This document shows, in pieces, positions 16,154 to 61,097 of a stretch of DNA of 64,000 nucleotides (positions within the stretch are counted from its first letter, which is position 1; every line of letters begins with the position of its first letter). Source of the DNA: Blattamonas nauphoetae. Taxonomy: Eukaryota; Preaxostyla; Oxymonadida. The notes beneath the pieces are model-generated. The model had not been told where the DNA came from, did not search any database, and was given only the letters and a program-made list of their open reading frames with translations. The stretch lies in the NCBI GenBank assembly GCA_033064195.1, contig JARBJD010000169.1, positions 1 through 64,000 on the forward strand. Reading direction: 5' to 3'. The position numbers and the translations under genes were made by a program.

Positions 16154-16333
16154 GGTGTAACAGCAATGCACTGTGATGTCACTTCGCTTTTCATGAACCA
16201 CGCTCTTTGCCTGCTCTCGTTGTCCACTTCATCTGAAATCGCACACTCACTTCAAATTCTCATTACGTGACGTTATCTTTTGTTCAGTTCTGATGTTTCT
16301 CAACTGATTCAAAACTTCAAATAAAGGGCAATA

Positions 16334-19300
16334 ATGAACACGCAGTTCTTCCTTCTGCTCACATGCGTATCGGCATGTTTGAACTCATTAATATTGCCAC
16401 ATCGCCTCTCCACTTTTATGTACCCCAACTCCGACTTTTCCAACTCTAAACAAAATAAAAAGTTGTCTATCTCGTTGCCAGAAGGAAAATACATTGGGGA
16501 CTACATTGATATTGCCCACAGATGGATAGAACTGACTGGAGAGCCACCGAACGAAAACAAAAATTTGAAGACAGAACTGATTGCTTCATCGAAATCAGAA
16601 ATGAACTGGAATACCGACAATACACGGAAACAGAATGTTGAAAATTACATATTCTTGTTGACAAACTCAACGCTGTCGTTGAAATGGATGCACATTTCAC
16701 TGATCGACAATTCTTTCGAAAGAAGACAGAAAATGAACGAAGCAAGATCACCAAGGCTGGCAATTGTTTCAAGCAGCATGCTGACGATATCTTCAAGCAG
16801 AATGGAAGTGTCACCATGGACAAGTGCGATTGTGATATCTTCATCTGCATTGGAGGAATCAGGAAGAGAATCGTCAGTTGTGATTTCGAAGAGCTTGCTG
16901 TGGAATGAAGTTGGGTCGATGCGTGGTGTTGTTGAAACATCGTTATTTCCATCATCTGTCGGGTCAGTTTGGGTGTCGATTGTTGGATGCTCGTTTGACT
17001 CTTCTCGGATTCTGGGAAAGGACGGGATTGGCCTCTCACTGACACGAACACCTCGAAAGAATGTGGAATCGGTTGGAAGACTTTCGTCATCGCTGATTGG
17101 GTGCTCGTTTGTGAACATGAGTTCGATTGGGTCTTCGCACTCGCCACGCCTTCGGCATTTGGATCAGAAGATGTTGGGATGTGTTGTATCGCTGACAAGC
17201 TCGCATTTGTCGGGATCGACGATTCGGGACGTGAACACTGGAGGATCCGTTTTGTGCTCGAATTCCTCCTTCTCCTCCCTCCTCCCCTCCCCCAATGCCG
17301 CCTCCACGCCGGGCACAGTAAAACTTCCTAGCGGAGCCACGGAAACATTCGTTGATGGCTCCGAATATTTGTTCACGGAAGAAAGCGGTCACACAACATC
17401 CACAACCCGCTTTTCAAACTGCCACTTCACTAGCACAGGATATCAAATAAATGATCGACCAATCACGCTCAGTATGTTCCGCGGCACTGTCTCCATCCTC
17501 TCCTGCTCCTTCACAAACATTCTCAGCGATAGCGGCTCTGGTGGAGCAATATATCTCTACAATGAGGATTATTTTAACCGCACTTCTTTCACAGTCGATT
17601 CGTCGAACTTCACGAACTGCTCGACAACCAAGTTTGGTGGAGCGATGTCCGTTCACTGCAGGGATGATATTCTCATCACTTCGTGCAGATTCGAGGCATG
17701 TTCAGCAAAGTCTGGAGGAGGATTGTCTCTTTTTGGCTTCGGCTTCGCTGGTCGCCCCCCGTTGATGCCAATCGTTGATTGTGTAATCGCTGACTGTACG
17801 GCCACCCAATATGGAGGCGGAGTGCATGCTCAGGGAGAAACAGAGCTGTCAGTTGTCGACTCGAAGTTTGAACGTTGTGAGTTGATCGGCGCACCTGACA
17901 GCGCACTCGGAGGAGGGATTAGTGTGTATGGATATATCCCGTTGACAGTGGAGGGAAGTCACTTCATCAAATGCAGGTCCGAAGATTTGGGAGGCGCGAT
18001 TGGAACGGAAGGCACGGAAACTCTCCGAATCTCCGACACTCTCGTGAAGGAGTGCTCGTCAGGAACGACTGGCGCAATCTACATACGATGCTATGGCACG
18101 AGTGGGCCTGTGTCGTTCTCGCAAGTCTTTTTTGATGGGAATTGGGTTGGTGATGACACCACTTCCTTCACAAACATCAATGGTTTTCATCCAGGTATCC
18201 CGTGGTTCACTGATCTCGCATTCAGATGCACTGAGTCAACTTCCATACCCCCAACACTCACGATTGTCGACTTCTTCACCGCAACCATTCTTCAATCAAT
18301 TGGAATGGTCGTTGATGTTTATGATCCAATGATCGGTGATTACAACTACGAACGAAAGATGCTTGACGAGTTCGACAATATTGGTCCACTTCTGACAGCT
18401 GCACCAATTGCGAGAGTCAATGAGGAAACAGGAAAGATTGAATTGGAGATGGAGGGAGAGACTCCGCTGACCTCGCAGGAATATGAAGTGACAGTGAAAG
18501 AGGACAAAATTGGAACAGAAACACGATTGAGAATGTTGTTCTCGGATGGGATTGGGACTCTGGTGTCTGGATCAGAAGTCAATTTGAAATACAGCACTGG
18601 TTACACGATCATCTCGATTGTGGGAGTTGTTCCTGAACCATCTTCTTCTCGAATGACGAATGCCATCGAAGTGCCTGTCGCCGCGTGGGCCTTCAACCTC
18701 GCAGTGACTCCCGACATCCTCACATTCACCACTCCTACAGAGCCACCGCCCTCTCATCCTTCTCTCACAATAGCAACTGCCTATCTCCTCTCAAAGGAAC
18801 CTGAATGTGCGTATATCGTTCTTGTGTTTGACAAAGACGTGTTTGGGTCGTTCGACATCGTTGTGGAAGAAGAAGGGACGGATGTGACGATCACTGTCCC
18901 AATTATCGGAACTACACTGACCGGCGAAAGCGACAAGATGGTTGTGGTTGGTGACGATCGTCTGCTCACACACGACACAACATACACAATCAAGTCGATC
19001 ACTCCAACGCCCAACATCACCACCACAACTGTGTGGATGAGTAATCCAGTTTCATTCCACATCCCCAAATCGTCGTATGTTCCTCCTGAAGAGCCAGAAG
19101 ATCCCGAAGATCCCTCAGAACCACTTCCAGAGGATCCTGAAGAGCCGGAAGACCCGACGGAACCAGAACCAGAGGATCCCACAAACAAAAAAGCTCTTTC
19201 AGCAGAAACGAAGAAACTGCTGAGCTGGCTGATTCCGCTGGTTGCGTGCCTGCTGGTTGCACTTGTGCTGGCGATCATCATCATCGTTCTGCTGCGACGC

Positions 19301-20242
19301 CAACAGAAGAAGAACGCTGAACCAGCTCAGAAAGAGATGGAAGCGCAAGAACCAATTGATGTCGAGAAAGTGGAAGAGTTTGGAGTTGATTGCTCAGATG
19401 GAATGATTCGGACGGATGGACACGACCACTCTGCGTTTGTCACTTCCGACGATCATCAAACAAAGATAAACCCGTCAGAGGCAGCCAAGAGCTCGCTTTC
19501 GAGGAAGAAAGGAGAGCTGGTGGAGGTGATGGCGTGCAGTGGAGATTTTGGGATCTCGACTGTTCCGATGACGAACACACTGTATTCTGTGTTGCACAAA
19601 GAACACCGCGAGATTGGGAAGCGAGGAGTTGGGATTCAGATTGTGAATGGATTGAAACAAGTTGTTGCTCATCGACCAGCGAGTGATGTTCTGACTCGTC
19701 TGTCGTCTCACTGGATTCTGATTGATGGATCTGGAAATGTGCAACTGAAACTTGAAATGAATGCATCAGAAGCGGAACAGGAAGCAGCTCGAGCACTATC
19801 TCACTCACAACCACTCCCAAACTTGGAAGGAAACAGTAATCAACCATCTGAGCATACACAAACAACAAACATAAACAAGTCAGGGATGGATGGTCTCAGA
19901 TGGCGAGCACCTGAAGTTGTGGCGGCAGATGGAAAAAGTGGAGTGGAATCGGTGGATGGGCACAAAGCGTCAGTTTTTAGTCTTGGCCTGGTCTTGTGGG
20001 AAATCGAGACTGGACAAGTTCCGTTTGGAGAACTGGATGCCGTGAATGCTCAACGACAATCGGGAACAGGAATTGGACCAAACATAGAGTCATTGAAGAA
20101 CGAGGAGATCATCGCTCTGATCCATCGTTGTCTTTCAGTTGATCCGAAACAACGACCAACACTTTCTGAGATTGGGGAGTTCCTTTCTTCTCATCCCGAC
20201 GACTCTCAGATTGCCTTTGGAAAGGAATTGAAGGAACCTTGA
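16334..20242 (+). CDS. Surface protein A: beta-helix ectodomain, membrane helix, pseudokinase
   Basis: A single intronless frame of 1302 aa and the only complete type 1 member here. Residues 1-17 are a signal peptide. About 30-650 are beta-helix repeats with the recurring pattern S.F..C.....GGA, like bacterial Pmp repeats. Two Ig-like strand modules cover about 690-915, then a P/E/D repeat stalk (918-950), one membrane helix (about 963-990, WLIPLVACLLVALVLAIIII) and a basic stop-transfer. The cytoplasmic part from about 1058 ends in a kinase-like C-lobe (WRAPEVV, SVFSLGLVLWEIETGQVPF, CLSVDPKQRP). The catalytic loop is degenerate (SSHWILID, no HRD), there is no DFG and no VAIK lysine, so it should be a pseudokinase. 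Likely a receptor or adhesin; ligand unknown. TTCAAATAAAGG lies directly before the ATG. Confidence 0.9.
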   Translation: MNTQFFLLLTCVSACLNSLILPHRLSTFMYPNSDFSNSKQNKKLSISLPEGKYIGDYIDIAHRWIELTGEPPNENKNLKTELIASSKSEMNWNTDNTRKQNVENYIFLLTNSTLSLKWMHISLIDNSFERRQKMNEARSPRLAIVSSSMLTISSSRMEVSPWTSAIVISSSALEESGRESSVVISKSLLWNEVGSMRGVVETSLFPSSVGSVWVSIVGCSFDSSRILGKDGIGLSLTRTPRKNVESVGRLSSSLIGCSFVNMSSIGSSHSPRLRHLDQKMLGCVVSLTSSHLSGSTIRDVNTGGSVLCSNSSFSSLLPSPNAASTPGTVKLPSGATETFVDGSEYLFTEESGHTTSTTRFSNCHFTSTGYQINDRPITLSMFRGTVSILSCSFTNILSDSGSGGAIYLYNEDYFNRTSFTVDSSNFTNCSTTKFGGAMSVHCRDDILITSCRFEACSAKSGGGLSLFGFGFAGRPPLMPIVDCVIADCTATQYGGGVHAQGETELSVVDSKFERCELIGAPDSALGGGISVYGYIPLTVEGSHFIKCRSEDLGGAIGTEGTETLRISDTLVKECSSGTTGAIYIRCYGTSGPVSFSQVFFDGNWVGDDTTSFTNINGFHPGIPWFTDLAFRCTESTSIPPTLTIVDFFTATILQSIGMVVDVYDPMIGDYNYERKMLDEFDNIGPLLTAAPIARVNEETGKIELEMEGETPLTSQEYEVTVKEDKIGTETRLRMLFSDGIGTLVSGSEVNLKYSTGYTIISIVGVVPEPSSSRMTNAIEVPVAAWAFNLAVTPDILTFTTPTEPPPSHPSLTIATAYLLSKEPECAYIVLVFDKDVFGSFDIVVEEEGTDVTITVPIIGTTLTGESDKMVVVGDDRLLTHDTTYTIKSITPTPNITTTTVWMSNPVSFHIPKSSYVPPEEPEDPEDPSEPLPEDPEEPEDPTEPEPEDPTNKKALSAETKKLLSWLIPLVACLLVALVLAIIIIVLLRRQQKKNAEPAQKEMEAQEPIDVEKVEEFGVDCSDGMIRTDGHDHSAFVTSDDHQTKINPSEAAKSSLSRKKGELVEVMACSGDFGISTVPMTNTLYSVLHKEHREIGKRGVGIQIVNGLKQVVAHRPASDVLTRLSSHWILIDGSGNVQLKLEMNASEAEQEAARALSHSQPLPNLEGNSNQPSEHTQTTNINKSGMDGLRWRAPEVVAADGKSGVESVDGHKASVFSLGLVLWEIETGQVPFGELDAVNAQRQSGTGIGPNIESLKNEEIIALIHRCLSVDPKQRPTLSEIGEFLSSHPDDSQIAFGKELKEP

Positions 20243-20711: not shown

Positions 20712-20760
20712 ATCTCCATCATCAGCGGAAACGTTGTTGAACGTTTCTGTGTTAACCATC

Positions 20761-32839: not shown

Positions 32840-34085
32840 CTCATTATTCGGATTTATCGGACTTGGAAATCCAATTCGAAGATTTTAGACTCTATTTCTG
32901 ATGAATTGGATGGCATACAACTTTGTCCAGGTTCTTCCGGCATCAGAGTGTTTGAAAAGGTTTGGATTATGAAAAGAGATACAGCGCCAAGGTAAAACTG
33001 CAACATCGACATGAGAAAGCTACGGAGATCATACTTGGTTTATCTTCTTCCTTGGAGAGAAAAGAGGAAACGGACAAATGTAAACTGGTATCTCACTCAC
33101 ACCCCTCGCCATTTTGTCACTTTCTTCAAGTTTAATAGCGAGAGACAGTCGCTGTGATTTTGGATTCGAATTTTCTGTCTTCAAAATGGAGTTTGAGAAT
33201 TTTATGACAGAATATTCTCAGACAATGTATGCTTGAGTCAGGATGCAGAGCTGAAAGGTCAATTGGCTCGAATAAAGAACGATCCTATCTTTTCCTGTTT
33301 GCACAGAAAACTCTTCTGTGACGTCCGGGGCAATCCTCAAAATTATCTGATTCGACTGTGTGACATATTTCCGACAGAAAGAGTTTCGAGATTTGTCAAA
33401 GCAGGAACAATTTCAGCTATAGTTGTGAGAGAGGAAGAAAGCAGTGCAAGAGAATGGCGAGAGAAAAACATACAGTCCAAAATTGTTGAGAAAAAGTGAG
33501 GACACACCATGAAAACGTGAAGCTTTGCTTGGTTCCATTGAAAAGCAACTTAATGTGAACTGTCGGCAAGCGTCGTTTTCGCTTCAGCTGGACTGTTATA
33601 CTTGTCTGTCGGGAGAGAAATTCTGAAAAAAGCAGGATAGTTATCGGATGTTCAAAGCAAAGTTGAACAGAAAAACAATACACTCCTTGAATTGGCCGAA
33701 AAGTGACATGTGTCGATTTTGGCTGAATAGATTGTCTGATTGTGGATGAAATTTGAAAAACAGTTTGAAAGAGTGAATTAAGTCAAACTGTGAAAGGAAA
33801 AGCGACTGGACGCGATTGGAGGAGATTGAAAGGAAGATCAAACCATGTTGTTTCTTTTTCTCGTCAACTCAACAAGATTGTTTCTCAGCGTTTATTTTCT
33901 GAAACGATCAGATGGATAAAAATAGTGAAATGGAGGCAAAATGGAAAACGTACGCATCTGTCAGCGTTGCAGTTTTGCCTTTCTCACTGTACAAAAGGTT
34001 GATTCTGACAGATACCAGTCAGACATTGTTCTGAATTTGTCTCGACACCTCATTGCTTGGATGGCATAAATGGGTTAACGTGTGT
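32840..34085. other. AT-rich spacer, no gene seen
   Basis: Short frames on both strands, none with a domain, signal peptide or sensible splice partners. No terminal repeats found until 34080. Confidence 0.5.
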
Positions 34086-34521
34086 GGGCAAACTGCAACT
34101 TGGCGGGACAGATCAAAATGGACTCTAACAGTCAAAAACACACTATTAATATCTTTCTAGGGAAGATATGTTGCTCTAGGATTCCGAAAAAAAGTACAGA
34201 AACCTCGGAGGAAATCATAAAAATAAGGGTCGGATCAAACCATGAAATCTAAAATAGGAAATCTCAGAAATATATAGACCTCTAGAAAGTTCCAAGCCTT
34301 GATATTAAAGGAATAGGTGTTCTTTGAAGATAAATGAAGGTTTAATGACAGAGAATCAACCAATTCTTTTTCAAGATCGCCCTAATTCACTATCAGAAAT
34401 TTTGAGAAAATGAAGTTTTTCCGAATCTCTTATCGCTTCGATTCTCCTTATTTCCTAGAAAATCACCAGTACAATCACTCATTGACTGAATAGGTCTGTC
34501 CGACCAAGTTGCATGTTGCCC
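34086..34521. mobile_element. MITE with 6-bp duplication
   Basis: 436 bp with imperfect inverted ends: the left reads GGGCAAACTGCAACTTGG then CGGGACAGA, the right in reverse GGGCAACATGCAACTTGG then TCGGACAGA. It is flanked by GTGTGT at 34080-34085 and 34522-34527. The simple repeat nature of the duplication makes its length uncertain. No coding content. Confidence 0.65.
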
Positions 34522-34602
34522 GTGTGTGAAAATACAGTGAAGAAATATCAGAAACTTGTGTGAAATGGCTTCAAATTAGCGAAGAACGCGCACAACGGAA
34601 AC

Positions 34603-35504: not shown

Positions 35505-36322
35505 CTACGGTTCAGGTTCCTTCATCTCGTTTCCAGATCCACCAATCGTTTCATCAGGATGAGAATAGAGGAACTCCCCAATCTCAGAAAACGAAGGGCG
35601 TTGTTTCGGATCAACTGAAACACAACGATGGATCAGAGCGATGAACTCCTCGTTCTTCAAACTGTCCATTTTCGGTCCAATTCCAGTCGCGGACTGTCGC
35701 TGAGCATTCACAGCATCCAGTTCTCCAAACGGAACTTGACCAGTCTCAATTTCCCACAACACAAGGCCAAGACTAAAAACTGATGCTTTCTGACCATCCA
35801 CTGCACTTCCTCCACCAGCAACCACTTCAGGAGCTCGCCAGCGAAGACCATCCATTCCTGTCTTGTCTTTCTCCGAGTTTTCTGTTCGTCTCGATGTATC
35901 ATTTTGGGTCTTCTCCAAATTTGGGAGTGGCTGCAGCAGTTGGGGGTGCATCTCAGCTGCTTCCTGTTCCGCTTCTGATGCATTCATTTGAAGCTTCAGT
36001 TGAACATTCCCAGATGTGTCAATCAGAATCCAGTGAGACGAAAGACGAGTCAGAACATCACTCCATCCTCGGTTTGCCACAACTTGCTTCAATCCATTCA
36101 CAATCTGAACTCCAACTCCTCGCTTCCCAATCTCGCGGTGTTCTTTGTGCAACATCGAGTACAGCGTGTTCGTCATCGGAGCAGAACTGATTTCAAATCC
36201 TCCACTGCACGCCATCACCTCCACCAGCTCTCCCATCTTCCTCGACGGTGACTCCTCCACTCCCGACGATCCGTTCATTCGCGTCGCATGGTCCTGAGAA
36301 GACCCAAACCCGGACTCATCAT

Positions 36323-36843
36323 CAGGCATCTGAGTAGTCCCATCAAAATAGGTAAAACTGGGATCAATTGATGTCAGTGCCTAAATTTGGACTGAGATCA
36401 AATTTCAACTCTTTTCCTTTGAGATTTTCTCATTATCACTTCATTAATCATGTTCAATTCACTTCTTGTTTTCACATAATGCTCTTCAATATTTCAGACA
36501 GCTCTTATTTCCCAAAAACACGCACGATCACAATCACCAACACTTCTTTTTTCGATGTATTCCCTTCATTGACTTTAGTCAGTGAGAAAAAACCATCAAA
36601 GAAGACATAATAACGCAATATCGACTTGTTTTTATAATTATTGTTGTAGAACAAACTGAAACAGCAGCACCCAAAGTTTGCATTTTCATGATCTATGAAG
36701 TGACCATTTTCCTTTTTACTTTTTTTTCCATTCAAATATCATATATAAGAAGACTTTTTTGAAATGAAAGAAACGAAATGGTATTGTAGGTATTTAGTGG
36801 GATCAGATCCGACTGGGATCACTGGGATCAAATCAGAAGCCTG
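36323..36843. mobile_element. hAT-like MITE in gene E, 8-bp duplication
   Basis: 521 bp. Inverted ends CAGGCATCTGA (left) and CAGGCTTCTGA (right, reversed), with TGGGATC motifs near both ends. Flanked by CTCATCAT at 36315-36322 and 36844-36851. It splits gene E between the juxtamembrane segment and the pseudokinase. The 8-bp duplication and CAG start fit hAT. No coding content. Confidence 0.85.
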
Positions 36844-36963
36844 CTCATCATTTCCATCTGTCCGAATCACTCCATGCGAACAATCCACCCCGAACTCTTC
36901 CACTTTCTCAACTTCAAATGCCTCTTGCACTTCCATCTCTTTCTGAGCTGGTTCAGATTTCTT

Positions 36964-37133
36964 GGGTGTTGCTACGCGCAGTCCGCGTAATGACTAGGGG
37001 CAGTCCGTTTTTTTGTGCTAGGGGCAGTCCGACTTTACTAGGGGCAGTCCGGACATTGCTGGAGGCAGTCCGTCGTTTTCTGGGTTACTAGTGCAAGTTT
37101 TCACTCTTTTATTTGCACCATGAGCACAATTAC
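36964..37133 (+). repeat. Left TIR of the Mutator-like element, five CAGTCCG units
   Basis: Five units spaced roughly 20-25 bp; the outermost reads CGCGCAGTCCGCG, the next three are CTAGGGGCAGTCCG, and the innermost is CTGGAGGCAGTCCG. The inner part TTCACTCTTTTATTTG is also shared with the right end. Repeated binding sites for a transposase would explain the spacing. Confidence 0.8.
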
Positions 37134-38399
37134 ACATCTTCGAAGTCAGAAGCAGCGAAATCAAGCAGATTTGGAAATTGATGGCGAGAAAGAGGTCATT
37201 TTGTTAGATCTGATCGAAAATTAGGGATATGAGATAGAAAGTGTCAATACTATCCGAATCGCACCAACGATGAAGGATGAAACACAAGAAGGAGATGATG
37301 AACAAGCTAAGATCCATTTCAATCCAGGATTGACCACACAAAGTTTTGGATCTCCAACCACTCTCTCACACATATCTCCACGTTATCGTCGTAATTTTCA
37401 CCCTTTCGGCTGCAATCAACTCTCTTTCCTAAAATCTATTTCCTGTTTAGTAGTTGATCATGTCAGAATTAATGCACAACTGCCGCGTGTCATTGTGCTG
37501 CCAGCAGAAGCGACGAGGACCAGTGAAGGGAAAGAAAGGAAGGCGGAGGGAGAGGAGCGTCGCTTGATGTGTGGTATCATTTGGCCGGGTCGTTGGAAGG
37601 AGTGGGGGAGGCAGAGAGGAACAAGTCGGAGTTCGAGGAGATTGGGACCAGGTGTGAGAGGGAAGAAAAAACCTGAGACGAGGAAGGGGACGAGAAGGAA
37701 TGGAGAACATTCACTTAACGGATGGGAAAAGGAAAACTAGAGAGAGAGGGACAAGTGGATGGAGGGCGAGCTGTGGTGGATGGCGTCGGCGGTGAAGATG
37801 GAAGAGGAGGGGGAGGTCGGATTTCGAGAGGCGGAAGAAGAGTGGGAGGGAGTGAGGGGGAGTGGGGTGTTGGCGGCACAAATGTCGTCGACAGAGAGGG
37901 AGAAGATCAGGAAGACCAGAGGAGACACCACAAGATCTAGCGAAGAAGAGAAGGAGATGGGGAGAATAAAAGAAAGCGGGAAACTGCAGATTCTCCGAAT
38001 CCTTCTTCGGTTTAAGCATGCCGGATTGGTGAAGTTGAGGGAAGGCTGCGAGGAGAACGAGGCGGAGAGAGACGAGAGAGAGGAGGATCGAGAACAAAAC
38101 TAATCATCAAAATCAGGAGAGAAATGGAGAAATGAAAGATGTTTGCAATTTTTTTCACGATTCCCTTCATACATTTCAAGAAACAAAGTCTGTAAGAAAG
38201 ATGTTCACCATACCTTGAAATGGTCGTAATATGGTACACCATCTCTACATCGCATCTTTCTCTACTCTATCAATGACATTTCGATTTGATTGACCGTATC
38301 CATCTCATATCTCTCACAATCGGTCAGATCAAACAAAGGCCCTCATTTACAGTCATCAATTCACTAATCCTTTAACATTCACTGAATTTGAATTAAAAT

Positions 38400-38572
38400 A
38401 TGTAGAATTGTGGTCATGGTTCAAATAAAAGAGTGAATATTTCCAATAATAGCCCAGAAAACGATGGACTGCCTCTAGCAATGGACGGACTGCCCCTAGC
38501 ATAGTCGGACTGCCCCTAGCACAAAATAACGGACTGCCCCTAGTCAAAACGCGGACTGCGCGTAGCACTACC
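38400..38572 (-). repeat. Right TIR of the Mutator-like element, five CAGTCCG units
   Basis: Inverted copy of 36964-37133 with the same order of five units (the innermost is CTAGAGGCAGTCC) and the same inner ATTCACTCTTTTATTTG block, differing by scattered substitutions. The two ends are clearly diverged, so the element is not brand new even though the flanking duplication is perfect. Confidence 0.8.
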
Positions 38573-40408
38573 CAGATTTCTTCTTCTGTCTTCGACGCAG
38601 CAGAACGATGATGATGATTGCCAGCACCAGTCCAACCAGCAGGCACGCAACCAGCGGAATCAGCCAGCTCAGCAGTTTCTTCGTTTCCGGCGACAGCGAC
38701 ATCTTTGGAACATACGACGATTTCGGAATGTGGAATGTGATCGTCTTGTTCATCAACACAAACGGCGAGTCTGTTCCTGGAGTTGGAACAATCGATTGGA
38801 TTGTGTAAGTCGTGTCGTGAGTCAGCAGACGATCTTCACCAACAACAATGAACTTCGAACTTTCTCCACCCAGCGATTCCACCAAATTCGATACTGTGAT
38901 CGTCACATCCTTCCCATCCTCCAAAACAACAATGTCGAATGATCCACTCACTTCTTTGTTGAAGTGAATAATCACATACGCGAATTTGGGATCGTTTGAG
39001 ATGAGGTCGGAAGTGGCTGAGAGGAGAGTCGACGGCTTTTCGGGGGTGGTGAAGGAGAGGTAGTTGGGTGTCACGGCGAGGTTGAACGGCCACGCAACGG
39101 CAGGGATTGTGAATCCATTCGTCATCTGAGAAGACGAGGAGTCAGGAATAACTCCCACAATCGATGTGATTGTGCAGTTCGTGTCGTATGGAAGATTCGA
39201 GTCTGATCCAGACACCACATTCCCTGTTCCATCCGAGAACAACATTCTCAATTTTGTTTCTGTACCAGTCTCGTCTTCTTTCAATGTCACTTCATATTCC
39301 TGCGAGATCGGCGGTGTCTTCCCCTTCATCTCCAACTCAATCTTTCCTGTCTTCTGGTTCACTATCCCTGTTGGCTTCGCTGTCAGAAGCGGACCAATCT
39401 TTTCGAATTCTTCATGGAAATATAATTCAGGTTCATATTTGTATATCGTTGTATCGTAAATTATTCCGATGACCATTCCATTCGAGTCAGGAATGATGTT
39501 TGTGAAACAGTCGTCAAGTGTGAATGCGGGCACAACGTCTTCGAATGACGGCCACAGAAGAGCGAAATCACGGAACTTGTGCGTACTCTCTGCGAGACCT
39601 GTGTATGCTGGGAAGAACTTCTTGTCCTCACCCATCGAATTCCCAACAAAGTACACATGCGACAACGAAAAAGGTTCTGCATCTGAATAACGCCTGATGC
39701 AGATGGCGCCTGTTGTTCCAGAGTAGCAGTTCTGCACGAGAATGTCTGAGACGCTGACTTCTGCATCGTAAAACATCGAAAATGCACCTCCCCCGTGTGC
39801 AGACTGGCATCCGATGAAATGAGTTCTCTCCACTGTCAATGGTAGATTTACATCCATGTGAATTCCTCCTCCAAACGAGTAGGTACCTTCAGTAGCCATG
39901 GACTCACAGCGTTCAAACCTCGTGTCAACAACTGAGAGAGCAAGATCTGCGGTATTGTACAGCCCGCCTCCACGTGCAACCGCAAAGCAGTCAGCGAGCA
40001 CACAATCAACCACTTTGGCTTGCTTGCCACTGACGTCCTTGTTTGCCGAGTCAATAAAAAGGCCTCCTCCAAACGAATACACTTCCGAGATCGAACAGTC
40101 GTCGAACCGGCACGAATCGATGAGAACATCATCCAGAATTTCAAGGTAGATCGCTCCACCACGGAAACGAGAGATGCAGTTTGTGAAGTTCGACGATCTG
40201 GCGGTGAAATACGTGCGGTTGAGCTCTTCCTCGAGCACGACATTGATGGCTCCCCCATAGTAGTGATAAAACGTGGCGTTAATGTTTGTGAAGGAGCAGG
40301 AGAGGATGGAGATGGTGCCTGGGTAGTTGTAGAAGAGGAGAGGGCAGTCAAATTTGCCAAATGCTTCTCCAGTGAAGGGACAATTAGAGAAAATGACGGA
40401 TGAGTCTA

Positions 40409-40804
40409 CTGAGGTTACACAATTCATGGAATTTGGAACTTTCCTGCAAGATGACAAGAAAAATTGCGAACCTTTCTTCCAGCTTCGATTCGTGTCATGT
40501 CACCACTAGACCATAATAGTCGTCGAGATGTTGAGAATCGTCCGTGAGGAGGACTGGTCATCAGATGTTGATCTCGCGTTTGAATCTGCGTTCGACTGTC
40601 AACCCGACGGAAAAGGTCGTTTCAATGAGATGGAATTTTGCAGAGCGTGCTGACAACGATATTGAACTGTAGATTGTGGATGACGTGACTCGGTCTCGTA
40701 ACAGGATGTGATGGTGGAAAGAGGAGATCAATCAATCCAATAATAAACAGAGTATCAACAAGTTTCAAACAAAGTTCCAAATTCCCTGAGCCATGTAACC
40801 TCAG
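40409..40804. mobile_element. TA-flanked MITE in gene E
   Basis: 396 bp with inverted ends CTGAGGTTACA, then a mismatched stretch, then GGAATTTGGAACTTT shared again. Flanked by TA at 40407-40408 and 40805-40806. It cuts gene E between DDTSGG and DSSVIFSNC in the beta-helix. The interior has no gene. Confidence 0.8.
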
Positions 40805-41149
40805 TAACCCACCGCTTGTGTCGTCAAATTTATATTGTTTGCCATCGGCGAACGTGTCGGAAGTGAAGAGACCAGCTTTGGTGATTGAATAATCAGGTGC
40901 GACGTCGGAGTTGGGGGAGGGGAGGAGGGAGGAGAAGGAGGAATTCGAGCACAAAACGCACCCGACTGTGTTCACGTCCCGAATCGTCGATCCCGACAAA
41001 TGCGAGCTTGTCAGCCATACACAGACCTTTGATACATGAGATCGATCAAGCAGAAACAGAGATCGATCGATCTCAGTTCCGGTTTTTGGGACTGAGATCA
41101 ATGACTTAATTAGGCGTATCTATATTTGTCTCATTGTTGTGTCAATTGG

Positions 41150-42620
41150 TCAAAATAAGAATCTTGAAAAAGCGAAATGGTTGTAGTGCGATAGAATGAA
41201 CACTGAAAAGAGGGGAAAAAACGTCTTCTCTCCTTTTCGCACTCTTCTCGAAGTTGCTTTCGTTGCATAATTATTCAGTCCATGCGATCGCCACGTGTTG
41301 CTCATTCCACCTCTCGCTGTCCATCCATCAGACGGAGAAGGCGTCGATTCAGGAAGAATCGATCGTTCTTCCGACAGTTGGATCCAAATGAGAATGGAGT
41401 GCGTAACTGGATCGGTTGATGTCTCTGGAATAAAAAGGATGGATTGCTCTGTCACAACTCCTGTTTGGTCTAAAACACTTTGTGCTGGATGAAGATCGGG
41501 ATTTGGAGATACTCGTAATTCTCGTCTTTCAGATGCAGCAGAGGGAGATAATCGTTGATCGAACTGCTTTTCGACTCCTTCTCGAAGACACTTTGATAAG
41601 TCGGCGAATCAGAGGCGATCAGAACAATCTTTGGAAGATCCAAATTTCGAGACCATTCGGGATGGCCTTCCACTTCGATCTGTTTGGATGGAGAACCATC
41701 ATTCGACGACATCGTGCTATTCGACCAGCTCTTCTCCGTAGATAAATGGACCACCATTCGACATTGGCAACGATTCGAACTGAACACTCCCAACATGCAA
41801 CCAATCTCCGTCGAAGAAGATCCCTCCTCCCTTCACAGCGACATAATTCGAGGACATGGTTGCAGGGATGTTGATTGAGAGTAGGTCGACATATCCGGGA
41901 TGAGTCAGGGTCAGTGAGGAAAAGCGAGACACGTCGAGAAACATTCAGCCACCGAGTTTGGCAGAACACTCGATCAGAGTCGGTTGAAGGTTGAGATCGC
42001 TATTTTGATCGAGCGAGGGGATGAAGTAGTCACCGCCTCTGGTCTCCGCTGAGCAGAGCGTAGCGAGCATCCGATTGACGTTGATTGTGTGACACTCCTC
42101 GAAGAAATGCGCTTTTGTCAGTTCAACAAACGCATTTCGGCAACTCAGCACGGCTCCATCGCCAGTCGTTGCGACGTTAGCGATGAGAACAGAATTTAAA
42201 TCACGGGCGAGTAATAGTTTGACAGATCCTCCATCGAATTCGAAACCCGAATGATCGGCGAAGGCCATATTGGATTCCTCCATCTGATGTGAAGGCACAA
42301 AGCGAGATGTCGACCACACCCTCCGAACTGATATTGATGAGAAGCTCCGTGATTGAGGAATCGAGTTGGTGGAAGAAAAACCACAAAGAGAGAGGCTTCG
42401 TCAGACACGGTGAAGAGAGAGCTGGTAGTGTGAGGAGGACACACGAACGGCTGAAGAGACGACTGAAACTGGCCTTTCAGAGAGACTGCTTTGGCCTCAA
42501 AGGTGAATGGGGGGATGGTGACTGGAATAGCCAGCTTCGACCTGATGCTGACTTCAAGCCAATCGCTTCGGGAGATCAAATTGCCTCCTCTTCTCGTAAA
42601 ACAGCTCCCACTCAACTCGC
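41150..42620 (-). pseudogene. Captured surface-protein fragment inside the hAT-like element
   Basis: Minus-strand frames in sequence: TFEAKAVSLKGQFQSSLQPF, SSEGVVDISLCAFTSDGGI, HSGFEFDGGSVKLLLA, VLSCRNAFVELTKAHFFEEC, SNYVAVKGGGIFFDGDWLHV, then a strand-rich tail to about 41300. The V..GGGIF..D pattern is beta-helix-like but differs from A-K, so it comes from another surface family. At least one frame change (near 42280) and an in-frame TGA (near 41945) show that it is decayed. Confidence 0.6.
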
Positions 42621-42759
42621 CTTCTCACTTTCCGTTCTTCTTCCTTTCTCCATCTCTCTTCATCCACCTTCTCTTCTTTCATCCTCCCTCCAACCCACCT
42701 CGTCCCTTCTCTCCCTCCCAATCTCCTCACCGAATGATCAGTCGTTACACAGATCCTAG

Positions 42760-44366
42760 TTAGGGCTGTCGACGATGCACATATTTGTCATCCATCTCGT
42801 CGCCCTCTTCGATCTCGCTTTGGTCATTGCTTTTGTTGACTTGTCTCTCTTCGTCGGTCTCTCCAGGTCCGTCTTGTTCATCTTGGCTGTGTCGACTTGA
42901 GTCTTCTAAACTGCTTTCTTGTTCAGCCACGCGAGATGTCTCTCTTCTTTCTTCTTCAAAAACAATCGACGAGCCTCGTGTGCTTCCAAGTGAGTCGGAG
43001 CTTCTCCTCGTATCTCTTCTTTCATTTTGATCCAAATTCCGAGATTGTGGTGAGTGTCTGCACGATGTCACACGATCTGTCTTGTCACGGTTGGAAGATG
43101 CGTGTGATGACGATTCAGACTTGTGTTGGGAAGGAGAAGGAGTGTGAAGTGCGGATGAGAGTGGAAGAGGCGAGGTGGAGTGAGAATCGAAATGTGAAGA
43201 GTCGATGGTTTGCGGCAGAGGAGAGCGGAAGTCGGTGATAGAGTGGTGGGAGGATGGTGGGGAGGGTGAGTCTGGGACAGCCAAGTGTTGTGAGTGAGGT
43301 GGTGTCAAGAGTGGAGAATGATGCGAATCCGACGAAATCGAGTCGGGTGATGTTTCTGTGTGCTCCAAATCGCTTCGATTTGTTCGTTCCAACCATCGCT
43401 CGTTCTCCATTTCCAACTTCACTCCAATCTCACGCTTTTCCGATAGGAAGTCTGTTCTTTCCCATTCAGCGTCGTTTTCGGGGCGGGAATGCACAAGACC
43501 GCCACTCAATCGCCCAAATTCAACATCGCTCATCCGAAGCTGGTCCTGTGAAAAATGAGTGTGAATTCAAAATGAAAAGTTACAAATTGAAGGCAAAAAA
43601 CGATGAAAAGTCGAGAGAGACCGAATAGGGTCAATAGAAGACAAGAAGGTTTGCAACACAAACTTGGATCAGTTCCTCACTCTAAATGTCCTGCTTGTCA
43701 CTAAAACGAGTGTCGTTTGCACTCTCTCCGTCTTCTGAGATGTTTTCTTCGTCAATTTGTCCGATATCACGACTTTTGGGACCATCCCGTTTTGACAGTT
43801 CTTCGCTCATCTTCGACACCCGTCTTCGGCTCGGCATGTCATGGAGCGTCACTTGCTGGACATGTTGAGACAGATCCACTGCACATCCCAAATGCTGCCT
43901 GATGTGGGTATGGTAGAGCAGAATCAGCAACGAAAAGAAAGAAGAGCGAGGACTGTTGGAAACGATAAATGAAATGTGCGATTGTTCAGAAAAGGAGAGC
44001 ACACATTCAGTCAGGAGGGTCTGTAGAGACTGGTTCTTCAGTGTGAACAATTTCCGGACCTTGAACAGAAGCGACGCGGAGACAGAGTGGAGCGACAGAT
44101 ACGAGTCGTGGAAGAGAACAGACACCAGATTCGGAATTTCGAACATCATATTCAGCCACTGCACCAAGCGGTCAGAGAAAAACAGCGTGACATGCCAGAC
44201 AGCGAGTATCCAGTTTTGTTCAGAATGACAATCCTAAAGATAAGAAAATAAAACAATCGATGAGAAAGAAAATAAAAGAATAAAGTCAAAAGAGTTCGGA
44301 GGAAGGAAACAGGCAAACAAACCGTGAAGAGAAACATCCAGTTAGGCCAGAGATTTCGTTTCCAGA
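42760..44366 (-). pseudogene. Captured intron-bearing gene fragment inside the hAT-like element
   Basis: Minus-strand exons 44366-44323 (WKRNLWPNWMFLFT), then about 44234-43680 (DCHSEQNWILAVW, LVQWLNMMFEIPNLVSVL and a helical region), then about 43545-42760 (Ser/His-rich, acidic). Introns with GT-AG ends separate them and the first junction keeps frame. The middle exon ends in TAG just before a good donor (GTGAGG). The helical part could be HEAT-like but I do not recognise the gene. Retained introns show DNA-level capture, not retrocopying. Confidence 0.5.
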
Positions 44367-44934
44367 CTTGAACGAAGGGAGAATTTGAAAGATAAGGAAA
44401 TAAAAGGAAATGAAAAAGAGAAAATGGAATAAGAATGTTGAAATATAGAAGAAAAAGGATATAATGAAAAGAAATCTCGAAGACTAATAAACAATTGAAC
44501 AACGAATGTAAACCTGCTGAATAAATCACTCTAAGAGAGAAATAATCGTCAAGAAATGGTATATGAGATCCATCACGGTGGAATTAATAATTTTTTCGAT
44601 AAACAAGCGTGATTCATCCAGTTCTTCAATCGGATCGGGAAGAAGAATTATTGTGGGACGATTCATCTCGAGATTTCAATGAAAGTACTTCTAAACAAAA
44701 AACAACACGGATAGTGGGTCTTTTACTTCGTTATTTCGAGTTTTATGAGAATTTGAACACTAGTTATTTTCTGAGATCAAAAAAGCTGAGATCGATGAGA
44801 TCAGTCTCAAAGGTCTGGCCATACAACACATCCCAACATCTTCTGATCCAAATGCCGAAGGCGTGGCGGGTGCGAACACCCAATCGAACTCATGTTCACA
44901 AATGAGCATCCAATCATCGATGACGACATTCTTC

Positions 44935-45604
44935 GGCATGGATTACCCCTGTAGGTTTTCGGAACCCTGTAGGTTGTTGAGCAACTGTGTGAGAGTGAGG
45001 TAGGATGAAAGGGGGGATTGTGGAAAAGTTCAAACCTCTGATTGTGTTGTCTCGTTTTCTGATTTCTTTTGAAAATCGGTTCGGAGGAAATTGTGTGCTT
45101 TCCCAAACACTTTTGATCAAATGCACTTTTCACGATCTATCAGGAAAATGAGTTGAACAGAAGGAGAAAGGAAAGAGAAAAGGTGAATATATGAGAAATG
45201 AAATGGAATTGGTGACAATAGTGTCCATTTTAGTCGACAATCTCTGACTTTGTTGTTGTGGTTTTGATCGAGGATCACGACCAGTTACGATTTTTACAAG
45301 TAATTGAGTAGCATTTTGAGGGTGATATGGCAAAAGAATGAGAAGATGAAAGGAATGAAAGCTGAAAAGGGAGTACTTCAGAGTAAGGGTGAATGTGGAA
45401 CGATCTGAGCTGTCTGTATCTCGTTGATGTCTTTTGGATGTTTTATGGACAGGGATGTGTCGAGAACACAGTGTTGAGTCACAACCTACAGAGTTCCAAA
45501 ACAACCTACAGGCTTCCATTCACAACCTACAGGGTTCCTTTACGCAACCTACAGAGTTCCTACAACCTACAGGGTTCCGATAACCTACAGGGGTAATACA
45601 TGCC
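44935..45604. mobile_element. 8-bp-duplication element with subterminal repeats in gene E
   Basis: 670 bp, flanked by CATTCTTC at 44927-44934 and 45605-45612. Inverted ends of about 42 bp with two mismatches begin GGCATGGATTACCCC on the left and GGCATGTATTACCCC on the right (reversed). Only two repeat units lie in the left end, but the right side holds six. Duplication length and clustered subterminal repeats fit hAT; the GGCATG terminus is not the usual one. No coding content. Confidence 0.85.
45481..45597 (+). repeat. Six tandem AACCTACAG units
   Basis: Spaced copies of AACCTACAGGGTTCC and close variants (CAGAGTTCC, CAGGCTTCC) at 16-28 bp intervals near the right end of the element. They also occur inverted twice in its left end. 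Probable transposase binding sites. Confidence 0.75.
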
Positions 45605-45853
45605 CATTCTTCAAACCGATTCCACATTCTTTCGAGGTGCTCGTGTCAGTGAGAGGCCAATCCCATCGTTTCCCAGAATCCGAGAAGAGTCAAACGAACA
45701 TCCAATAATCGACACCCAAACTGACTCTCCAAAGGATGCAAATGACGATGTTTCAACAACACCACGCATCGACCCAACTTCATTCCACAGCAAGCTCTTC
45801 GAAATCACAACTGATGATTCTCTTCCTGATTCCTCCAATGGAGATCCAGAAAT

Positions 45854-46951
45854 GTGCGAATCCACGATGACTTCGCACTATCCTCAAAAACGCACCAGAT
45901 TGAGTCGTGACCAATAGAAGGAAGAGGAGATCTCGTCTCATACCTTTCTTTTGCCATTTCATTCCTTGTTCGTTTCATTTCGCTCGCCCATTTCAGAAAA
46001 TTGGTTTCGATTGCATCTTCTTTTGAGACCTTATCAATCGCAGAAAGTCAGTCTTCCACTTATAAATATCAGATTATGTCACCTTCTCATCAAATATCTC
46101 ACAAATTCAGCTCTCTCGTCGAATATTGGTTCGCAAGAAAAGGAAGTCCATTCTTTTATCCTGATCTCCAACAAGGAAACTAGTGATCAAACCAAACACC
46201 ACATCATCGGTGTTGACAACTCATTTCACACATTTTTTCGGACAATACACTCCTCAAACCAATCCGGTCAAAATCAGGCGATTTCTATCTTCAATCTCAT
46301 CCAAAGGACATGGTCAATCAAACAATCGCACAAATCTTATCTGTTTTCAGGAATCGTCTCCCAACCTATGCCATTCTGGGTCAATCACAAGAGAAACAGA
46401 CTCCAATCGACAGTTCACTGCGATTCGCATTTAGATGGAACCAGACATATTTATCCAACTTGGTCGTGTTTGATCCCTTTTTATCAACATTTTCAGACAT
46501 GACAATAGTCAGTCGCCATTCAGTTCCCGTGTTTGCTTCGAACCATCTTTTGAAGTCGACCATATCCTTTGCGAGAATAAACTCGGGACGTTATATCACT
46601 AAAAACAAGAACAAAGTCGAATAAGATTCTTTTGAATGACACACGAGACATTGGGAAGTCATTTTCTGCGATCTGATCACATTGTCGGATATCACCGTGT
46701 TTTGGTTGTTTGTCCTTCAAGCTCCAGTTTCAGCATCAAAACATTCACTGTCTGATAATTTCCAGTTCAACAAAACCGAAACCTTACATGTTCGTAGATA
46801 ATGACGACATAAGAAAGTTGTGACCGTTTATCACTATAGAGCTCGTTAGAAGAGAAATTTAGATGCGTCGTATGATCTCACTTCTTATTTGGTTTTGTTG
46901 TCTGATTTATTTCAAAAAATTCGAAAGTGTGTAGTCATCGTGGATTCGCAC
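45854..46951. mobile_element. 4-bp-duplication TIR element in gene E
   Basis: 1098 bp with perfect 18-bp inverted ends GTGCGAATCCACGATGAC, flanked by AAAT at 45850-45853 and 46952-46955. Comparison with intact paralogs (AIVISGSPLEESG) fixes both edges. Plus-strand frames (45951-46502 and 46310-46624) are open for 100-180 codons but I recognise no transposase. A shorter relative lies at 29218. Superfamily not assigned; a 4-bp duplication narrows the choice. Confidence 0.85.
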
Positions 46952-47511
46952 AAATCACAATCGCACTTGTCCATGGCGACACTTCAATTCTGCTTGAAGA
47001 TATCGTCAGCATGCTGCTTGAAACAATTGCCAGCCTTGGTGCTCTTGCTTCGGTCATCTGCTGTCTTGCTTCTTCAGAATTGTCGACGAGTGAAAAGTCC
47101 ATCCATTTCAACGACAGAGTTGAGTTCGTCAATGAAAACATCCACGTCCCGGAGTCATGTCTTTGTTCTTCGGCTGGACTTGTGTTCACTTCTGACTCAG
47201 GCGAAGCAATCAGTCCAGTCTTCGGACGACCATTCTCGTTCGTTGGCACTCCTGTCAGTTCTATCCATTGATGTGCAATTTCAATGTTGTCTCCAATGTA
47301 TGTTTTTTCGGGCAACGAAATAGACAACTTTTCATTGTTTTCAGAGTTGGAAAAGTCTGAGTTGGTGTTCAGAACAGAGGAGAGGCAACGAGGCGACACA
47401 GACGAGTTCAGACATGCCGATACGCAGTTGAGAAGAAGTAAAAATGGCGTGCTCATGATTGTTCAACAAATAAATGTCAATCAAAGTTGTCTCGAAGGAC
47501 AGAGAGAAAAC

Positions 47512-47981: not shown

Positions 47982-50900
47982 TTATTGCGTTTGATCCTTC
48001 ATTGCTTTGTGAGACTGATGGTTGGAGTCTCCTGGATGAGATGAGAGAAATTCATCAATATCAGAAAGCGAGGGGCGTTGTTCAGGATTTCAACCAGATC
48101 CCCATTTGTCATGGATTTTGAGTTCTCTCCATCTTGCGAATGGTTGAGGTTGGTTCGGAGTGCACTCGACGAGTCGAACGCCGAATGAGTTCTTCGTTCT
48201 GTGTGAATCACCCCTCCCGTCTTGTCGACTGCGGAAATTTCTGTCTGTTCTTTCCATTTGATCTGATCCTGATTTTCCATTTCTCTCTGAGCAGGTTCAG
48301 ATTTTTTCGTCTGTCGTCGTCGCAGCAGAACGATGATGATGATCGCGAGCACAAGTGCAACCAGCAGACACGCAACCAGCGGAATCAGCCAGCTCAGCAG
48401 TTTCTTCACTTCTGCCAACTTCGATTTCTTTGGATCTTCGGGTTCTTCCGGTTCTTCGGGAGGAACATACGACGATTTCGGAATGTGGAATGTGATCGTG
48501 TCGTTCATGAACACAAACGGCGAGTCTGTTCCTGGAGTTGGAACAATTGATTGGATTTTGTATGTCGTGTCGTGAGTGAGCAGACGATCTTCTCCAACAA
48601 CAATGAACTTCTCACTTTCTCCAGCCTGAGCGTCCACCAAGATAGGCACAGTGATTGTTACATCCTTTCCGCCCTCCAAAACAACAACGTCGATCGATCC
48701 TTTCACTTTCTCGTCGAAGTGAAGAATCAAATACGCGAATTTGGGATCGTTTGAGATGATGTCGGAAGTTGCTGAGACAAGAGTGAGGGGCGATGGTGTG
48801 GTGAAGGAGAGGTAGTTGGGAGTCACAGCGAGATTGAATGACCATGCGGCGACAGGCACTTCGATGCCATTCGACATGCAAGAAGAAGAGGAAGAAGATG
48901 GTTCAGGAACAATTCCCACCATCGATGTGATCGTGTAACCAGTGTTGTACTGAAGATTTGATTCTGACCCAGACACCAGAGTTCCTGTCCCATCCGAGAA
49001 CAACATTCTCAATCTGGTTTCTGTTTCGTTCCCATCCGCTTTCACTGTCACTTCATATTCCTGCGAGATCGGCGGTGTCATCCCCTCCATCTCCAACTCA
49101 ATCTTTCCTGTCTTCACATTCACTCTCACTGTTGGTGCAGCTGTCAGAAATGGACCAATATTGTCGAACTCGGGATCGAAATGTCGTTCAGGATCGAACA
49201 AATGTGTCGATGAATTGTAAGCACCTCTGACGATCATTCCAACAGAATCAGAGACGAGTGTTGTGAAGCAAGTATCAAACTTGAGTGTGGGTGAGTTGGG
49301 ACAGTAGACACAAACGATCGTGACGTCAATGAATGTGACTGCATTCTCTTCTAATTCGAAGCGGCGTGTGAATTGAAGAGTGTCATCACCAATCGAATTC
49401 CCATCAAACAAAACACGAGTGAATGAAAAAGTCGCAGAACCATCATAGTTTCCGATGCAGATGGCGCCAGTCGCTCCTGAGTGGCAGTCTTTCACGAGAG
49501 TGTCGGAGATGTTAAGGCTGGTCCCTCCATCATATGAAATGGCGGCCCCTGAATGTTGAGACGAGCATTCGATGAAGTGAGCTCTCTCCACTGTCAACGC
49601 GATATATCCATACACACTACTCCCTCCCCCGATTGTGTAGTAAGATCCACCAATTGCCTCGCAGTGTTCAAACTTCGTGCCGACAACTGACAGACCGAGT
49701 TCGCCCACAAAATACACCCCAGCTCCGTCGGTGACCGCCGTGCAGTCAGCAAAGACGCAGTCAACTAAATTGTATTTGCTTCTCACGGATGTTACCATCT
49801 TCGTAGTTTCCAGCAAGAAGGAGCCCTCCGCCATGCGCCGAATATGCGCCATCAGTGACGGAACAGTCCTCGAATCGGCATGAATCGATGACAGCATCAT
49901 CCAGAATTTCAAGGTAGATCGCTCCACCACGGAAACGAGAGATGCAGTTTGTGAAGTTCGACGACTTGGCTGTGAAGTATGTGCGGTTGAACTGATCAAC
50001 GACGAAGACAAAAACTGCTCCACCCCAGCCACCGTTGGCGATGTTGTCGAAGGAGCAGAACTTGATGGAGATGGAGCCTGGATACATGTTGAATGTGAGA
50101 GGGCGAGCTGATGGTTGATATTTGGCTCCAGTGAAGCGGCAGTTCGAGAAAATGATGGAGGATAGAGTGGTTCCACTTGATTGGTTAAAATAATACTCGG
50201 TGCAATCAACAACAGTGTCCGGAGTGTATGCACCAGCAGGGGAGACTGGGAGTGGATCATTGCTGCGGTCGATGTCGGTGTTGAGGGAGGAGAGGAGGGA
50301 GGAGAAGGAGGAATTCGAGCACAAAATGGACGCTTCGTTGTTCACGTCACGAATCGTCGATCCCGACAAATGCGAGCTTGTCAGTGATACAACACATCCC
50401 AACATCTTCTGATCCAAATGCCGAAGGCGGGGCTCTTGCGAACACCCAATCGAACTCATGTTCACAAACGAACAGCCAATCAGCGATGACGACAGTCGTC
50501 CAACCGATTCCACATTCTTTCCAGGTGCTCGTGTCAGTGAGAGGCCAATCCCGTCGTTTCCCAGAATCCGAGAAGAGTCAAACGAGCAGCCAACAATCGA
50601 CACAGAAACTGACCCTCCAATCGATGCAAATGACGATGTTTCAACAACACCACGCATCGACCCAACATCATTCCGCAGCAAGCTCTTCGAAATCACAACT
50701 AACGATTCTCTTCCTGATTCCTCCAATGGAGATCCAGAAATCACAATCGCACTTGTCCATGGTGATACTTCAATTCTGCTTGAAGATATCGTCAGCATGC
50801 TGCCTGAAACAACTGCCAGCCTTGGTGCTCTTGCTTTGGTCTTCTGTGATCTTCCTTCGGCAGAATTGTCGATCAGAGAAAAGTGCATCCATTTCAACGA

Positions 50901-51703
50901 TAATGTTGAGTTTGTCAATGAGAACATGCAACTTCCAACGTTCTGTTTCCTTCTATCATCTGAATTCCAGTTCACTTCTGATTCGGATGAAGCAATCAGT
51001 TCGGTCTTCAGATTTCCACTTTCATTATTTGTGTCCCCTGTCAGTTCCATCCATCTGTGTGAAATATCAATGTTGTCCCCAATGTATGTTCCTTTTGGTA
51101 GCGAGATTGACAACTTTTCATTTTGTTTAGAGTTGGAAAAGTCTGAGTTAGTGTTCAGAAGTGATAGTGGTCGGACAAACCCGTTAGAGCGGATAAACCC
51201 GTTAACCATTCCACATGAGCATAGCAGTCCCCCCTCTTCACTAAAATTATCCTTCCACTTCCCGTTCATTACTCTCTTCATTATTTTTAAAATAGGAGTT
51301 ACTGTTGAAAGAATGATTGTGAAATGGAATGAGAAAAATGTAAGTCGAAATGTGCTCGGAACTTAGCCAATATCTTCCCAGGCGTCCAAGGGATGGTACA
51401 TTGAGATACGACCTCTTTGTACTCAGCATCACATACAGGGTGTCGTGGCTGGTCATTCATCGATTTGAACTGACCCATTGACCTCGATCAAACATCTGAA
51501 CAGGGGACAAATCATTTCAGAATTCGAACAATAACTTTCTTTCAAGCACAACATATCAGTCGTCATAATAAAAGTTTCAATGTGAAGTGGGGTATGTTGG
51601 GAACGGGTTTATCCGGGTACTATGAGGAGAGGCGATGTGTCGACACAGGCGAGTTCAAACAGACCATCATGCCAGAAACCAGAAGTAACAATTGTTTGAT
51701 CAT
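47982..51703 (-). pseudogene. Surface protein H: transposon in signal peptide, one frameshift, pseudokinase deleted
   Basis: ATG at 51703 (MIKQLLLLVSGMMVCLN). A 455-bp element (51167-51621) cuts the first exon-like segment after RLSS; the mature part resumes SLLNTNSDFSNSK. The beta-helix frame runs to about 49780, shifts by one base between REKQIQ and LVDCVFADC, then continues through Ig-like modules, a P/E stalk (PEEPEEPED), membrane helix (WLIPLVACLLVALVLAIIII) and juxtamembrane tail. Near 48085 GDLVEI joins directly to EQRPSLSDIDEFLSSHP, so about 200 codons of pseudokinase are deleted; the end is also out of frame with what precedes it. Type 1, closest to J and E. Confidence 0.85.
51167..51621. 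mobile_element. MITE in gene H signal-peptide region
   Basis: 455 bp. Inverted ends are imperfect: the left reads AGTGGTCGGACAAACCCGTT, the right reversed AGTACCCGGATAAACCCGTT, with a further AAACCCGTT inside the left end. Flanks fit a 2-bp AT duplication (51165-51166 and 51622-51623), the choice that keeps the H frame; TA read one base over is the alternative. No coding content. Confidence 0.7.
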
Positions 51704-61042: not shown

Positions 61043-61097
61043 GACTGTTCAACAAAGAATTGCTCAACAATGTTTCGATGTAGAGAAAAGAGAGATG

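Follow-up and report, generated by a model that had tools for sequence, protein, structure and literature searches.

How can a gene that is interrupted by six different DNA elements join into a single reading frame once they are subtracted? The question is raised by a locus of Blattamonas nauphoetae, an oxymonad commensal of the cockroach gut whose group includes members without mitochondria. The stretch analysed here, called the window, comprises 64,000 nucleotides (positions 1 to 64,000 of contig JARBJD010000169.1, C78 in our numbering). In it gene E lies on the minus strand from 47456 to 35505. It holds six inserted elements, named E1 to E6, each of which has inverted ends and is flanked by a target-site duplication (TSD). 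Our favoured explanation, with a probability of roughly 0.87, is that gene E, one copy in a large family, was put out of action very recently, six independent recent insertions of six DNA-transposon families having broken it. The gene would have been functional until very recently. E1 would have come first and probably killed the gene, the other five would have followed after the copy became dispensable, and a G-to-T nonsense change would have arisen beside E2. No new mechanism is required. Removal of the elements in the manner of ciliate internal eliminated sequences (IESs) or by splicing is unneeded, because a once-intact gene and a short time already give the in-frame sum. The tempting claim of precise removal from DNA or RNA in an oxymonad is replaced by a dated history of a working gene, six insertions and one stop.

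Layout of gene E and its intact relatives

Gene E spans 11952 bp. When the six elements (1098, 670, 3796, 396, 1609 or 1610, and 521 bp for E1 to E6) and one TSD copy each are taken out, the exon pieces join to 3822 nucleotides, or 1274 codons. The joined frame ends in TAG and has no frameshift, and its sole internal stop is a TGA at codon 248. All six TSD pairs are perfect. The parts are listed below in gene order, with TIR for terminal inverted repeat.

Exon piece 1: 46952..47456, minus strand; signal peptide and start ATG, ending with TSD copy 1 of E1.
E1: 45854..46951, minus strand; 1098 bp, TIR GTGCGAATCC, 4-bp TSD (ATTT on the gene strand).
Exon piece 2: 45605..45849, minus strand; in-frame TGA at codon 248, the T of which adjoins the E2 TSD.
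E2: 44935..45604, minus strand; 670 bp, TIR GGCATGTATTACCCCTGTAGG, 8-bp TSD.
Exon piece 3: 44818..44926, minus strand.
E3: 41022..44817, minus strand; 3796 bp, TIR CAGACCTTTGA, 8-bp TSD.
Exon piece 4: 40805..41013, minus strand.
E4: 40409..40804, minus strand; 396 bp, TIR CTGAGGTTACA, TA duplication.
Exon piece 5: 38573..40406, minus strand; beta-helix region through transmembrane segment.
E5: 36964..38573, minus strand; 1610 bp with a 9-bp TSD, inverted repeats of about 297 nucleotides at 78%.
Exon piece 6: 36844..36953, minus strand.
E6: 36323..36843, minus strand; 521 bp, TIR CAGGCWTCTGA, 8-bp TSD.
Exon piece 7: 35505..36314, minus strand; kinase-like C-lobe, stop TAG.

A previous reading made from the letters of the window (the sequence-only reading) had described six elements in one 3.8-kb gene, a reduction from 11952 to 3822 nucleotides and one TGA, and every one of these figures was reproduced. 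Its list of duplications agrees with ours for five elements, while for E5 the siblings identify the duplication as AGATTTCTT (9 bp) and not CAGATTTCTT (10 bp). Divisibility by three alone is a 1-in-3 event; the weight rests on the full-length match to paralogs. The layout is not a product of chance, because all six elements are repeats present elsewhere in the genome. The elements have the same ends at those other places, and the genomic form of gene E is disabled by the insertions and one nonsense codon, as in a pseudogene.

One intact paralog is found in the window and another, L069, on contig C590.

Gene A: 16325..20242, plus strand; intact, uninterrupted family member of 1302 codons from ATG, stop TGA.

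L069 aligns to residues 1–1273 of joined gene E with 74% identity and gene A to residues 1–1271 with 61% identity, and each of them is one open frame across the whole alignment. The reconstruction of the older gene E is therefore sound. The proposed match to gene A from signal peptide to pseudokinase was borne out as a collinear alignment through the kinase-like C-lobe, to which L069 can be added. The family is predicted to consist of surface proteins with a signal peptide, a beta-helix ectodomain, a transmembrane segment and a kinase-like C-lobe that lacks HRD. In gene A no HRD triplet is present, and a DFG triplet is found at residue 1071, before the match to the kinase model. Family matches number at least 97 among the top 8,000 candidates scored: 94 named as Blattamonas, a further one that is the window's own protein, and two from Monocercomonoides. 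Loss of one copy would be tolerable because the family is large.

That TGA is a true stop in this family is seen from gene A, whose own stop codon is TGA. The ciliate code, in which TAR is read as glutamine, was set aside, genes E, A and L069 ending in TAG, TGA and TAA, respectively. The codon matching the internal TGA of gene E is GGA in gene A and GAA in L069. Most simply, the TGA would derive from GGA by a G-to-T change at the base directly before the E2 duplication. The ratio of nonsynonymous to synonymous divergence (dN/dS) is 0.50 between E and L069, 0.48 between E and A, and 0.48 between L069 and A. Changes at codon positions 1, 2 and 3 amount to 75, 72 and 121 on the E lineage (121/268 at position 3) and to 65, 53 and 99 on the L069 lineage (99/217 at position 3). 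Judged by these values, constraint on gene E was not relaxed, and before the insertions it did not evolve as a dead gene.

The protein of gene E in public databases is the deposited model BLNAU_16293 (window 40905–41018 and 38826–40409), in which part of exon piece 4 is translated in a different frame and the E4 end seems to serve as splice acceptor. In three other family members, which contain no large inserts (window 20758–23606, 48059–51227 and 57439–61045), the reading frame shifts inside the part that matches gene A. Frameshift decay probably occurs in the family, with small introns or assembly errors as alternatives for these three members.

Six element families and the age of their insertions

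E1 to E6 are all multi-copy DNA-transposon families of the same genome. The analysis is based on the genomic sequence of a single assembly (88,311,006 bases searched in 837 contigs; GC of the window about 45%), and the best 40 candidates were scored per family. For E1, 39 further matches are listed, some partial, with the best at 99% (best 40 of 83 candidates), and a 4-bp TSD of the form ANNT is found in 6/6 siblings fetched. E2 has 40 further matches listed, one of them 100% identical on contig C779 (best 40 of 90). Ten others of E3 cover the full 3,796 bases at 99–100%, besides many partial matches (best 40 of 211), and the three siblings fetched all have an 8-bp TSD. E4 is represented by 39 further listed matches, one 100% identical on C82 (best 40 of 109), and by a TA duplication in 12/12 copies examined of 40 listed, including that of gene E. 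Besides partial matches, three full-length siblings of E5 are found at 99–100% (best 40 of 118), each with a perfect 9-bp TSD, which is GATTCAGAG in one and GAACATCTG in the two with the same flanks. For E6, the 40 other matches listed are all printed as 100%, a rounded value (best 40 of 419). The 8-bp TSD is present in 29/29 E6 copies with gene E's included, and NNNATNNN in nearly all copies; L050, which is cut by a contig end, is left out of the E6 counts.

Three features of these families were observed in passing. The same E5 insertion with the same flanks is found on C445:10079–11761 and C548:22424–24100 (L084 and L085), a duplicated or allelic stretch kept in the assembly. At C778:382225–383274 two E6 copies in head-to-tail order are separated by 8 bp, and one and the same duplication sequence flanks each of them. 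A fragment of E3 (window 41350–42576) shows 40–58% protein identity to another host gene (the L027 frame), as in Pack-type elements.

From their anatomy we take E2, E3 and E6 to be hAT-like (8-bp TSD and short TIRs), E5 to be Mutator-like (9-bp TSD and long TIRs) and E4 to be a Tc1/mariner-like miniature inverted-repeat transposable element (MITE). E1, with its 4-bp TSD, is left without a superfamily label. hAT transposase C-termini match 61 places in the genome, some in frames of 700–895 amino acids.

All six insertions are young. Private changes in the gene E copies amount to 7/1098 for E1, 0/670 for E2, 3/3796 for E3, 0/396 for E4, 2/1609 for E5 and 1/521 for E6, that is, 13 in 8,090 bp. 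The siblings compared were 6/39 for E1, 1/40 for E2, 3/10 full-length for E3, 6/39 for E4, 3/3 full-length for E5 and 28/40 for E6. Private changes are upper limits on insertion age; some may predate the insertion or occur in copies that were not fetched. E1 is older than the other five (7 changes versus 6 in 6,992 bp, p = 0.0007). The 28 E6 copies differ from that of gene E by 1–2 bases only. Several non-autonomous DNA-transposon families have moved very recently in Blattamonas nauphoetae.

How much decay should such ages leave? For 3822 bp at the age of E1, 0.64%, the expectation is about 24 substitutions and 1.1 stops, and one stop is seen; at an age of 0.16% it falls to 0.27 stops. The premise of the sequence-only reading, that six insertions in a dead gene normally leave other decay, does not hold, the decay expected since the oldest insertion being about one stop, as observed. 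Two of its options are supported, that all insertions are recent by the 0–7 private changes per element, and that selection acted until very recently by a dN/dS close to that of the intact pair. Its statement that the frame is kept at every junction is right as to the joins and uninformative on removal. The in-frame join is automatic, because insertion with target duplication deletes nothing.

The E2 family is peculiar for its fixed length. An exact length of 670 bp is found in 23 of the 25 copies that are complete (both ends present, duplications perfect), the other two measuring 649 and 671 bp, and the TSD is a perfect 8 bp in 25/25, including gene E's. L023, L024, L025, L033 and L035, with missing ends and no TSD, are left out of these counts. 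The 30 most distant pairs of 24 strict-end copies (22 of 670 bp) differ on average by 194 substitutions (about 29%) and 2.7 gap events. A 25-bp near-palindrome lies 1.5 bases off the exact centre in 23/23 copies of 670 bp, and among these copies the nearest sibling is 0–78 bases distant. Duplication mismatches are found at 0/200 positions, which sets an upper limit of about 0.75% per copy. E2 copies look like old lineages in new places, because sibling distances reach 78 bases yet the duplications are all perfect. Coding capacity was rejected as the cause of the length: variability hardly differs among the codon positions (0.140, 0.147 and 0.162), and the longest open stretch in six frames of the 23 oriented copies is 129 amino acids. 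A literature query for reports of MITEs with a locked length gave no result for the exact terms used. The exact length of the family is a separate, testable puzzle.

No published description of the E1–E6 elements in Blattamonas was found in a search that left supplements and preprints outside, and Rfam and tRNA scans of the 64-kb window gave no matches. The main text of the genome paper (PMC10703272) gives 88,537,989 bp, 879 contigs and 44.96% GC, and words starting with "transpos" are absent from it.

Opposing evidence and rival explanations

Several points weigh against a recently killed gene. First, 26/54 insertion points of the E2 and E6 families (17/29 for E6 and 9/25 for E2) fall within frames of 300 amino acids or more, versus 40% of 324 control points from the same flanks, with the element taken out first and gene E's own two insertions included. 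Purifying selection would reduce such open-frame insertions unless all of them are very young. Second, six insertions in one 3.8-kb gene are extreme, and a local insertion hotspot would fit too. Third, the chance of zero frameshifts at the age of E1 is about 0.2, assuming indels at 1/10 of substitutions. Fourth, the superfamily labels stand on TIR and TSD anatomy, and the transposase scan covered open reading frames (ORFs) of E3, where none of the eight tested matched a transposase and one gave a below-cut-off match to Crr6.

Neither E2 nor E6 avoids open frames, which they hit as frequently as other sequence. Because 28 E6 copies are near-identical and no E2 TSD has a mismatch, we read this as a sign of young elements, an account that fits as well as removal would. 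The host frames hit are often members of gene families. Of 26 host frames with 300 amino acids or more, 20 were compared with Pfam, and four gave a match: beta-helix, RRM, Peptidase_S74 and a sub-threshold integrase core.

As to crowding, a scan of the window recovered 5/6 gene E elements, missing E4, and three plausible elements elsewhere. These three candidates with TIR and duplication lie at window 27420–28431, 28434–28764 and 34079–34528. A doubtful element at 50608–51476, which overlaps the start of a family member, was left out of the count, as were hits at 59–63 kb, which we take for two inverted paralogs. By this count 5/8 elements lie in 7% of the non-element sequence (p = 8e-5); the value is 2e-4 with the doubtful element and 9e-6 for 6/9 when E4 is counted, all of them post hoc. 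Genome-wide, the 185 listed copies form 10 pairs within 12 kb versus 4.6 expected, mostly within one family. Clustering across families is not seen among them (3 pairs within 12 kb versus 3.8 expected), gene E alone giving 15; the count covers the best listed copies, and the E5 partial matches in it are a selection. The simplest cause of the crowding would be that a dead gene in a gene-dense region offers a neutral target. Members of the gene E family are found within 1.5 kb of the insertion at 10/30 E2 loci (L009–L038, with L023, L024, L025, L033 and L035 included) versus 2/29 E6 loci (L039–L068), with gene E counted in both (p = 0.02).

The insertions might be heterozygous or polymorphic, with an uninterrupted allele making the protein in part of the culture. 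We consider this unlikely, though worth keeping in mind, and it is compatible with the favoured explanation. The extreme youth of all insertions would fit it, and the assembly does keep a duplicated or allelic stretch with one E5 insertion (C445:10119 and C548:22464). Against it, the assembly contains no further copy of exon piece 5 that exceeds 78%. Among 14 E2 or E6 sites elsewhere, seven have an uninterrupted relative across the junction, the best at 83–96% per site; no empty copy exceeds 96%, and the best ones look like paralogs (best 40 of 786 candidates).

Much further from our expectation, clean excision may be frequent in Blattamonas, an IES-like economy in an organism that lacks ciliate nuclei, with gene E as a crowded snapshot. 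Such an economy would fit because open frames are not depleted of insertions, no old landing is seen in 25 E2 copies and the E2 length is locked.

Precise excision at the DNA level as in ciliates, with one TSD copy left and a working expressed gene, is very improbable. The exact TSDs and the in-frame join would agree with it, as would the host frames at L017, L058 and L063, open over about 1000 codons, and the E2 and E6 insertions, which are undepleted in coding sequence like Paramecium IESs. The best leads are L017 (C832:137050–137719), an E2 copy in an open 996-codon host frame, and L093 (C379:132945–133340), an E4 copy in an open host frame. Their nearest full-length relatives reach 95% and 94%, respectively, so they are possible older insertions in intact genes. 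A partial relative of L017 on C89 is 99% identical over 360 bases. This and its perfect 8-bp duplication argue for a recent landing of L017, while the TA duplication of L093 is uninformative on age. Against excision, the joined frame retains the TGA, which this family uses as a stop. If insertions were harmless they would be expected to scatter, whereas they crowd in gene E and none was found inside the intact gene A. The assembly shows the uncut form, and a search of it with exon piece 5 gave no near-identical duplicate, the best other match being 78%. All gene E copies are young, and survival of the frame needs no removal. We know of no germline–soma division or nuclear dimorphism in oxymonads. 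The option of precise removal that the sequence-only reading had offered gains no direct support, and the TGA, the crowding and the phase and strand tests given below speak against it.

Removal from RNA, as for introner-type transposons, is the least probable. Candidate splice sites would be offered by repeated CTGTAGGTT/AACCTACAG motifs near both ends of E2, where one GT..AG choice, made by eye, would leave 27 nucleotides in frame in gene E. The CTCAG end of E4 seems to be used as acceptor by BLNAU_16293, which looks like a prediction, its first exon being in a different frame. An introner model of E2 with this by-eye 27-nucleotide remnant was rejected, 5/9 insertions in long frames having the phase that makes a TAA. 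Splicing of E6 was likewise rejected for lack of strand bias to the host frames (6 same versus 9 opposite, n = 15). No fitting GT..AG pair was seen by eye in E5 and E6, where no systematic splice-site scan was made, and gene A and L069 each read through the entire alignment in one open frame. Translation through the elements was dismissed as well, since the length of element plus TSD modulo 3 differs among them.

Comparison with known systems

Gene E is most readily compared with young transposon-interrupted pseudogenes of surface-protein families. It shares with them the intact paralogs, the recent insertions with intact TSDs, the nonsense change and the prior constraint, and differs by an unusually high load of six families in one gene. 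The elements resemble MITEs and Pack-type elements in their TIRs, family-specific TSD lengths, near-identical copies, the host fragment in E3 and the missing transposase domain among its tested ORFs. In contrast to those, E2 keeps its 670-bp length across large divergence.

The IESs of Paramecium and Blepharisma, as described in PMC3464196 and PMC9942856, are likewise insertions derived from transposons or MITEs within coding sequence, and their removal with one repeat copy restores the frame. Gene E differs in that the restored frame has a stop and that each of its elements is a full-length repeat whose siblings are near-identical. The equal frequency of ciliate IESs inside and outside coding sequence is matched here by E2 and E6 (26/54 versus 40%). 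Introners, as described in PMC9860276, share the DNA-transposon anatomy of TSD and TIR and the location within genes, whereas here neither a splice-compatible phase preference (E2) nor a strand preference (E6) is observed.

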